From Lachnospiraceae bacterium NE2001 (GTDB taxonomy: Bacteria > Bacillota > Clostridia > Lachnospirales > Lachnospiraceae): DNA of 64,000 bases. Location: NCBI GenBank assembly GCA_900110635.1, contig FOEK01000012.1, positions 1-64,000 on the forward strand. The letters run 5' to 3'. The notes under the pieces were generated by a model. The model was given only the letters and a program-made list of their open reading frames with translations, was not told where the DNA came from and did no database searches. Within the stretch, counting starts at the first letter, position 1, and each line of letters opens with the position of its first letter. A program made the translations under genes and the position numbers. Shown in pieces: positions 27,978 to 29,145 of the stretch.

Positions 27978-28024
27978 GATAAGACAGGGGACGGTTCAGT
28001 TGCAAAACCATTCCCTGTCTTATC
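27978..28024. repeat. GGGAC repeat, flavour A, loop-expanded
   Basis: GATAAGACAGGGGACGGTTC, then AGTTGCAAAACCA, then TTCCCTGTCTTATC: 12-base outer arms with an enlarged centre. It lies just downstream of the pilin-like gene and is followed by TGTTTT on that strand. Confidence 0.85.
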
Positions 28025-28047: not shown

Positions 28048-28803
28048 TTATTTATATTCAGCACAAGGATCAGGATAGAGTCTGTAAAGAGGACGAACCT
28101 TCTGTTTAACGCCTCGCCCATTAAAGTTCTTATCACCAATCCATATTTCTGGTTTCATAGATGTACAATTAACACATACCATCCAGCACTCTGGATCACC
28201 ATAACCAGCATTCTTTTTATATTTCATAGGAAGCATAGTTCCTGCATGGTACCCGTCAAATGAATTAGCTCCATCTGTACCACCGTATACTTTTCCTACT
28301 CCATCAAGATGAAACAGATTTTTTAAAAACTCATCAGTATATTCTCTAGTAAGTTCAGCCTCTTCGCCCCCCTTATCATCAAGTGTACTTTTAAACTGTG
28401 AGTTTTCCCAACCTTTTGAGTTTTTGTTAGAAGGACTCTTATAATATACACCTCTGCACCACGCTATACATACTATCTCATAAGAACCTTCAGTTCTATT
28501 ACTGATAGAACCATCAAGATTACAATTATGGCCATTAGCACCAACCCAAGTTCTAGAAACATCAGCTGTTTTAGTTGTTTTCACTGGAATTGCCCACCCA
28601 GTATATGCATCATCATTTCCACTAGTTGATGCTAATTCAGCAGCCTCAAACATCATCTGTGCAGTCTCTATATCAACAGCTTTTCTAGACTTATCTAAAT
28701 ATCTAATTAGAGCCGGAGCTACAGCCGCAGCTAGAATAGTCATAATTGAAATAACTATTAATAGTTCAACCAGTGAAAATCCATTATTTCCTCTCTCACC
28801 CAT
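28048..28803 (-). CDS. Type IV pilin/pseudopilin-like protein under c-di-GMP riboswitch control
   Basis: The N-terminus GERGNNG|FSLVELLIVISI followed by MTILAAAVAPALIRYL is a class III (prepilin peptidase) signal: a basic leader, cleavage after Gly, Glu at mature position 5 and a 20-residue hydrophobic helix. The remaining ~200 residues form a Gly/Asn/Tyr-rich globular domain with several Cys, larger than most major pilins. Without an assembly ATPase, PilC or PilD gene in the window it is an orphan, so those functions must lie elsewhere. The start is uncertain: ATG at 28803 is best placed for GAGAGGA; ATG at 28815 is too close to it. Confidence 0.88.
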   Translation of the reverse strand: MGERGNNGFSLVELLIVISIMTILAAAVAPALIRYLDKSRKAVDIETAQMMFEAAELASTSGNDDAYTGWAIPVKTTKTADVSRTWVGANGHNCNLDGSISNRTEGSYEIVCIAWCRGVYYKSPSNKNSKGWENSQFKSTLDDKGGEEAELTREYTDEFLKNLFHLDGVGKVYGGTDGANSFDGYHAGTMLPMKYKKNAGYGDPECWMVCVNCTSMKPEIWIGDKNFNGRGVKQKVRPLYRLYPDPCAEYK

Positions 28804-28850
28804 AGATTTCACCATTCCTCTCTATTAAACTCTCTATCAAAACCTCATAA

Positions 28851-28904
28851 AACAAAAAGCCACAGAACATCCAATTTGGTTTACAAATGGGATTAATCCT
28901 GTGG
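28851..28904 (-). terminator. Riboswitch expression platform: intrinsic terminator
   Basis: On the minus strand CCACAG/CTGTGG, ATCC/GGAT and ATTTG/CAAAT stack into one long hairpin followed by CTTTTTGTTTT. It lies between the aptamer and the pilin-like gene, 37 bases before the ribosome site, so stopping here would prevent expression of the gene. Confidence 0.9.
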
Positions 28905-28923
28905 ACTAAAACTACGATATTTG

Positions 28924-29005
28924 CAACTGGCTACCTTACAGATTATCTCCCATCTATAAGGCCCTATAGCTTTGCGTCACAGAATCACTTCTGCTTTGCC
29001 CATTG
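28924..29005 (-). ncRNA. Cyclic-di-GMP-I riboswitch aptamer (GEMM-I)
   Basis: On the minus strand the conserved GEMM-I parts occur in order: closing helix P1 (CAATGG at 29000-29005 with CCAGTTG at 28924-28930), GGGCAAAG, a stem CAGAA-GTGA-TTCTG with a GNRA tetraloop (28980-28993), the signature GACGCAAAGC, TATAGGGCC, a second stem and GGTAGCCAGTTGC. All key blocks known from the Vibrio cholerae Vc2 aptamer are present. It is followed by the terminator at 28851-28904 and the pilin-like gene. Confidence 0.95.
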
Positions 29006-29022
29006 TTAAACTTTTAAGATAA

Positions 29023-29028
29023 TTTTAT
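29023..29028 (-). promoter_or_regulatory. Likely -10 element for the riboswitch transcript
   Basis: TATAAA on the minus strand would place the transcript start about 10 bases before the aptamer. No strong -35 box is seen at the usual distance; TTTCAC is the nearest. Confidence 0.45.
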
Positions 29029-29145
29029 ACTACACGAATATTGGGTGAAATGCTACTAATAAACCTATATTTATGCTAAATTTTTGGCATTTTTAACAAA
29101 AAATATGACATTTTTAAGACTTATATGGCCTTCCTCATAGGCATA

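Follow-up and report, generated by a model that had tools for sequence, protein, structure and literature searches.

A leader on the minus strand of the 64,000-nucleotide stretch of DNA analysed here (the window), from the gut or rumen bacterium Lachnospiraceae bacterium NE2001, resembles a c-di-GMP riboswitch, and it precedes a gene for a large type IV pilin-like protein that stands apart from pilus assembly genes. The locus raises the questions of which ligand the leader recognizes, in which direction it would switch the gene, and how a pilin encoded on its own could be put to use by the cell.

The leader contains a class I c-di-GMP aptamer

A covariance scan of the window returned a single Rfam match above gathering score, which belongs to the c-di-GMP-I family RF01051 and covers the model at full length (positions 1–87 of 87) (Table 1). 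The covariance alignment contains the conserved blocks GGCAAA and GACGCAAAGC, a GNRA loop, and the G and C at the ligand-contact positions of class I aptamers. The first-pass annotation, made by reading the sequence, had placed a GEMM-I aptamer on the minus strand, and the scan bears this out. The leader RNA is an ordinary member of RF01051 and is expected to bind c-di-GMP. The promoter-like site ahead of the aptamer is of a quality found eight times in 1.3 kb, compared with a mean of 4.6 in shuffled sequences.

The pili of Geobacter are controlled by GEMM-I switches that respond to cGAMP, and cGAMP or another dinucleotide could likewise be the ligand here. The RF01051 alignment, however, places a G at the discriminating position of the window aptamer, where cGAMP switches (GEMM-Ib) have an A, and the genome encodes 43 GGDEF and 15 EAL matches. 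These observations make a ligand other than c-di-GMP very improbable, even though switches for cGAMP, that of pilM among them, were initially annotated as c-di-GMP switches (excerpt of PMC9262584).

Table 1 Features of the switch–pilin locus, in window coordinates
Feature	Position	Strand	Remarks
Promoter-like site (TTCACC, 16 nt, TAAAAT)	29022..29049	−	9/12 consensus letters; weak
c-di-GMP-I (GEMM-I) riboswitch aptamer	28919..29010	−	RF01051, 58.9 bits, gathering score 35, E 5.7e-9
Predicted antiterminator helix 2, 5′ strand AAUGGG	28999..29004	−	Pairs with 28890–28885; seen at transcript ends 28887 to 28864
Aptamer hairpin with GUGA (GNRA) tetraloop	28979..28994	−	From the covariance structure line; 3′ side supplies the main strand of the antiterminator
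Predicted antiterminator helix 1, 5′ strand UGAUUCUGUGAC	28976..28987	−	Pairs with 28906–28894; 12 pairs, one bulged C
Intrinsic terminator hairpin	28858..28907	−	−19.3 kcal/mol; U-rich tail at about 28857–28848; begins 11 nt past the aptamer
Large type IV pilin-like protein, 255 aa	28048..28815	−	Likely start 28803; family without a name
12-bp inverted repeat GATAAGACAGGG...CCCTGTCTTATC	27978..28024	−	After the pilin gene; read by eye

A predicted antiterminator competes with the aptamer and the terminator

The intrinsic terminator noticed in the first pass was recovered as a hairpin followed by a U-rich tail. The leader was folded at 17 transcript ends, either freely or with the aptamer pairs forced, using energies that contain no ligand terms and omit the tertiary contacts of the aptamer. 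The free folds contained an antiterminator with two helices. In helix 1, the 5′ strand comprises GAC in addition to the tetraloop hairpin's 3′ strand. This helix was complete or nearly complete in the minimum-energy folds of the nine transcripts tried with ends from 28895 to 28864, and also at ends 28850 and 28840, and it was absent at ends 28860, 28858 and 28855. The 5′ strand of helix 2 contains the G that makes the ligand contact in solved structures of class I aptamers. Of two alternative pairings proposed by hand in the first pass, both with coordinates that proved correct when checked by eye against the sequence, the first (28985–28978 with 28903–28896, 8 pairs) forms the core of the computed 12-pair helix. 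The second (28926–28919 with 28888–28881) is possible on paper but missing from the minimum-energy folds, in which 28890–28885 pairs with 29004–28999 instead.

For transcripts ending at 28887–28864, the antiterminator fold was computed to lie 3.8 kcal/mol below the aptamer-forced fold. When the 3′ arm of the terminator was complete (ends 28860–28855), the free fold contained the tetraloop hairpin alongside the terminator. The antiterminator fold returned at ends 28850 and 28840, where it lay 4.3 and 1.7 kcal/mol, respectively, below the aptamer-forced fold that holds the terminator. Because the free fold flips between antiterminator and terminator depending on the transcript end, the switching decision must be kinetic, and its outcome hinges on kinetics that fold energies do not give. 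A kinetic decision is also described for Cd1, a class I switch of C. difficile, in the excerpted part of PMC9262584. We estimate that about 4 kcal/mol contributed by the ligand would tip the balance, which corresponds to a ligand concentration some hundreds of times the dissociation constant.

Antiterminator pairing exceeds chance across leaders of the genus

The pairing was compared with chance in 96 class I switches from 32 of 37 genomes of the genus, including the window leader and the switch of L178, which at 33 bits is below the gathering score. A strict finder identified terminators in 81 of the 96 leaders, 77 of them within 120 nt, and 76 had enough length-matched terminators for swapping; the 20 leaders preceding pilins contributed 19, 18 and 17 members to these three tests. 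With looser criteria, hairpins were found in every one of the 20 pilin leaders, but those of L153 and L178 look doubtful. The measure was the ensemble pairing mass between the aptamer and the 5′ half of the terminator, with 60 dinucleotide shuffles for each leader.

The pairing mass of the window leader, 21.3, was the highest of the 77, with a shuffle mean of 7.3 (p 0.016, the lowest possible value). Combined with 26 foreign terminators, the same leader reached a mean of 7.9, and one of the 26 was equally good. The 18 pilin leaders had a mean of 11.7 against 8.6 in shuffles (Wilcoxon 0.0012; 4 individually at p ≤ 0.05), and the 59 other leaders 9.7 against 6.7 (Wilcoxon 2e-10; 14 individually at p ≤ 0.05). 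Own terminators also paired better than foreign ones of similar length, both in 17 pilin leaders (11.4 against 8.0; 8e-4) and in 59 others (9.7 against 7.5; 5e-7). Since related leaders are not independent, all these p-values are guides only. The aptamer strand that enters the antiterminator varies: a number of leaders are similar to the window in using the hairpin 3′ strand, extended by GACGC, L116, L118 and L131 use GGCAAAGCA, and L136, L138 and L139 use UUUAGCAA.

The ensemble measure was preferred to a simple duplex test because the latter ignores competing folds. The best window duplex in that test joins the aptamer 3′ hairpin to the terminator arm (−21.9), elsewhere than the computed antiterminator. 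At a threshold of 0.05 for both shuffle controls, the duplex test accepted 5 of 19 pilin leaders and 16 of the 62 remaining ones.

Two leaders closely connected with that of the window had no excess of pairing. These are the leader of the closest orthologue (L177, genome G008; 3.2 against 5.7 in shuffles, p 0.66), for which a fraction of 0.70 of the foreign terminators were as good as its own, and the second switch–pilin leader of the genome (L086), which was not above its shuffles (p 0.61). The orthologue leader is what would be expected if the aptamer no longer switched or if the terminator were a fixed attenuator, and, according to the excerpt of PMC6366702, C. difficile has 16 c-di-GMP switches of which 11 are functional and 5 are not. 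Loss of switching is nevertheless improbable at the window locus, where the aptamer is full-length and high-scoring and the antiterminator is the strongest of 77 leaders, and where the association of switch and pilin is one that recurs in the genus.

The switch is predicted to turn the pilin gene off

The terminator takes no strand of the aptamer, and the two can coexist, which predicts an OFF arrangement. Cd1, which precedes the flgB operon of C. difficile and is an OFF switch, has the same design, with an intrinsic terminator after the aptamer, coexistence of the two, and an antiterminator that excludes the aptamer (excerpts of PMC9262584 and PMC6366702). In the former, the coexistence of terminator and aptamer in Cd1 (OFF) is contrasted with pilM (ON). 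The window leader behaves like Cd1 in silico, since its terminator is located downstream and is able to coexist with the aptamer, and its antiterminator excludes the aptamer, wins without ligand, and pairs above shuffles and swaps. It differs from Cd1 in the strands recruited by the computed antiterminator, which are the ligand-contact strand and the tetraloop hairpin's 3′ strand. Furthermore, Cd1 controls flagella, whereas the target in the window is a pilin in a genome that gave no flagellin match. We consider it quite probable that the leader turns transcription off in the manner of Cd1, and the OFF logic suggested in the first pass is thereby retained as a prediction, which draws on the coexisting aptamer and terminator together with the computed antiterminator.

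The following sequence of events can be proposed. At low c-di-GMP, the nascent leader would refold so that two aptamer strands, the tetraloop hairpin's 3′ strand and the one that contacts the ligand, capture the 5′ arm of the terminator; the terminator would then come too late to form, and the pilin would be made. At high c-di-GMP, the ligand would stabilise the aptamer and leave the terminator arm free, so that the hairpin could form and transcription would end ahead of the pilin gene.

The class of the aptamer does not settle the direction alone, because Bc2 of B. thuringiensis is a class I ON switch (excerpt of PMC6366702). In an ON switch, as in Bc2 or the class II switch of pilA1, the ligand would block the terminator and turn the pilin on, in keeping with the raising of C. 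difficile pili by c-di-GMP (excerpt of PMC6366702). The pilM switch, a relative that responds to cGAMP, is also ON; its aptamer is highly homologous to that of the window and its target is, by name, a pilus gene, but its terminator takes an aptamer strand (excerpt of PMC9262584). A pilM-like ON mechanism requires such a terminator, whereas in the window 11 nt separate the aptamer from the terminator and both folds coexist. In a search that allowed overlaps, the best terminator was located after the aptamer in 79 of the 96 leaders and overlapped it in 4, with 13 lacking any, and for the 20 pilin leaders the numbers were 19 after and 1 overlapping. An ON switch is improbable given this placement.

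Cdi-2-4, located ahead of pilA1 of C. difficile, resembles the window leader in being a c-di-GMP switch before a type IV pilin. However, Cdi-2-4 is a class II ON switch heading pilus genes (excerpt of PMC6366702), whereas the window has a class I switch, predicted to be OFF, on a stand-alone gene: the match is to RF01051 and not RF01786, and the neighbouring genes encode an ABC-F protein and a beta-glucosidase. The first pass had set the class I switch against the class II type that turns clostridial pili on, and excerpts of PMC11477304 and PMC6366702 support this contrast for C. difficile.

The target is a large pilin that may be assembled in trans

The protein carries a class III pilin signal, a GFSLVELLIVI helix and a Glu at the fifth mature position, and as the first pass had claimed, the signal is recognized by profiles, with scores of 30.9 bits for N_methyl (PF07963; cut-off 21.2) and 27.9 for TIGR02532 (cut-off 16.3). 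The second Met, which aligns with a Met of the closest orthologue, is the more likely start, judging from that alignment. The mature domain contains about 243 residues and not the roughly 200 estimated previously. Type IVa major pilins (PilA/PilE) share the signal, the helix and Glu 5 with the window protein, which differs from them in the length of the mature part and in having its own conserved C-terminal half. The family (22 sequences, 47% mean column identity) is conserved up to the C-terminal YRLYPDPCxEYK. Pfam and NCBIfam models matched the N-terminal part, and none matched the C-terminal half at E 0.001. The AlphaFold model of the window protein (pLDDT 71.2, pTM 0.72), with a helix at residues 15–63, appears pilin-like at middling confidence. 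A Foldseek search of the PDB with this model gave nothing at E 0.001, and the family profile matches solved pilins, for example 8tj2 and 8pfb, in the N-terminal part. The 12-bp inverted repeat 3′ of the gene is possibly the transcript end; it is not among the terminator-like sites from the computed search.

The genome has 3.72 Mb in 62 contigs and is 99.97% complete. Ten of its pilus assembly proteins were searched for in the window, and none matched at E 1e-5; the best match (E 5.6e-5 over 48 residues) is inside the ABC-F ATPase gene. The statement of the first-pass annotation that no pilus assembly gene is near thus holds for the window. Its term "orphan" fits the neighbourhood but not the genome, which encodes a type IV pilus machine at another site. 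A cluster on contig C37 encodes PilB with an MshEN domain, PilT, PilC, a 177-aa major-pilin-like protein, PilM and PilN domains, and minor pilins. PilB and PilT are T2SSE matches (PF00437, of which the genome contains six) told apart by size and reading, and PilC is a T2SSF match. A second cluster, on C28, combines PilB- and PilC-type proteins with pilins of its own. A peptidase A24 domain is present at C39:30510, and a separate A24 N-terminal domain on C28. The search for pilB, pilC and pilD advised in the first pass has yielded PilB and PilC on C37 and the peptidase A24 on C39.

The second cluster also includes a 2321-residue open reading frame that starts with a class III pilin signal (G000:C28:140990-147955, L180), an extremely large pilin-like protein. 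A Tad-like cluster at G000:C40:257-264 kb (L183), recognized by a PF00437 match and named by reading, may represent a third pilus system.

The N-terminal helix of pilins governs their assembly. In the 42 residues that follow the cleavage site, the window pilin is identical to the C37 major pilin at 31 positions, to the genome's other switch-preceded pilin, on C38, at 32, and to each of two pilins from C28 at 21. The difference between 31 and 21 identities indicates C37 as the likely machine for the window pilin. Against this stands a profile comparison of the C37 major pilin with the window pilin family, in which only 57 N-terminal residues align. The window pilin, with its C37-like N-terminal helix, is probably processed and built into the main type IV pilus, that of C37, in trans. 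Alternatively, it could have no part in the C37 pilus, acting as a pseudopilin of the C28 system or staying unassembled as a surface protein anchored in the membrane. The large mature domain, the lack of an assembly gene in the window and the pilins belonging to the C28 cluster are consistent with this alternative, but the C37-type N-terminal helix makes it rather unlikely. The whole model, an OFF switch acting on a pilin that is built into the C37 pilus in trans, is one that we consider likely, and assembly is its weaker step. Together, OFF switching and assembly into the C37 pilus would mean that c-di-GMP lowers the share of the window pilin among the subunits.

The MshEN domain binds c-di-GMP in other bacteria. 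It was found in both PilB-type ATPases, G000:C37:86198-87913 (L182; 57.7 bits) and G000:C28:132245-133930 (L180; 40.9 bits), above the cut-off of 23.1, and c-di-GMP may therefore act on the pilus motors besides the pilin leader.

Class I switches recur ahead of pilins in a genus nearly without flagellin

A class III pilin is the first gene after 20 of the 96 class I switches of the genus, in 18 of 37 genomes (17 identified by the strict motif, and three with GYTLVEL or GLTLVEL). A second pilin-sized open reading frame follows in L137, L142, L147, L153 and L159, and one of 675 residues in L178. In the window genome, N_methyl scores above its cut-off at 13 sites, and two of these lie downstream of class I switches, of which this genome has four. 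Outside the genus, the pilin motif was found downstream of none of the 12 class I switches examined, out of 23.

In an alignment (A1) of 21 homologues of the window protein, nine have a class I match upstream (L032, L033, L035, L042–L044, L047, L049 and L052, with a smaller pilin in between in L033) and 12 have none (L034, L036–L041, L045, L046, L048, L050 and L054, the contig of L046 ending there). The class I switch is not a fixed companion of this pilin family, a point that weighs against the model. The switch and pilin of the window occupy 1249 nt between the ABC-F and beta-glucosidase genes, which were named by reading, and the corresponding gap measures 21, 149, 134 and 154 nt in G005, G008, G012 and G016. 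A pilin was present after the ABC-F gene in none of 21 relatives from the genus, over stretches of up to 1.5 kb (less than 0.5 kb in L272, L283 and L288). The closest orthologue (G008, 63–64% identical) sits elsewhere in its genome with its own switch. The switch–pilin unit was either gained in the window lineage or lost in the relatives.

Other genes also follow class I switches. The best class I switch of the window genome (L084:7686-11433, G000:C42) precedes genes for an FHA/DUF6382 protein, a PP2C phosphatase and a Ser/Thr kinase, and the first genes after the switches of L087, L092, L120, L122 and L140 are kinase-, PP2C- or FHA-protein-like, as judged by eye from their N-termini. It is possible that such switches link c-di-GMP to Ser/Thr phosphorylation. 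A small protein starting with MYDEMDID is encoded first after a class I switch in L085:6724-6984, L141, L144 and L150 (genomes G000, G008, G033 and G005); the G000 protein has no Pfam match at E 0.001.

Class II switches (RF01786), searched with stricter filters, were detected in none of the 37 genus genomes and in one of 61 overall, G056 of the same order, which demonstrates that the search is able to find them. Flagellin was matched in one of the 37 genus genomes, many of them incomplete, compared with 21 of 24 genomes from other families of the order, and the window genome, which is not among the incomplete ones, has no match. The near absence of flagellin indicates that the genus has little use for flagella, the classical target of class I switches. 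The only flagellin match in the genus is G013:C7:978-1385; flagella were probably lost early and retained or regained once.

Implications

The observation of the first-pass annotation is confirmed, and its interpretation is supported in part. What is new is a class I switch, predicted to be OFF, on stand-alone large pilins; the RNA itself is ordinary. What makes the target unusual is that lone large pilins stand behind such switches time after time, in a genus where flagellin is nearly absent and no class II switch was detected. Among the best matches in the open-access literature, a scope that leaves subscription papers mostly outside, none concerned c-di-GMP switches before pilins in this group. 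In C. difficile, which has been studied best, class I switches turn off targets that include flagella, and class II switches turn on targets that include pili (excerpts of PMC11477304 and PMC6366702). If a whole genus controls pilins by class I switches, predicted to be OFF, the direction of control would seem to follow the class of the RNA and the role of the organelle rather than pili themselves, and the control of pilus composition by c-di-GMP would become testable in gut and rumen bacteria.

We speculate, regarding it as possible but less likely than not, that class I OFF switches moved onto diversifying, cassette-like large pilins in a genus devoid of flagella and class II switches, and that a single type IV pilus accommodates all of these pilins. 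The motility-off role would have been carried over from flagella, and PilB would read the same signal directly through its MshEN domain. If this is true, the level of c-di-GMP would decide the make-up of the pilus rather than its presence.
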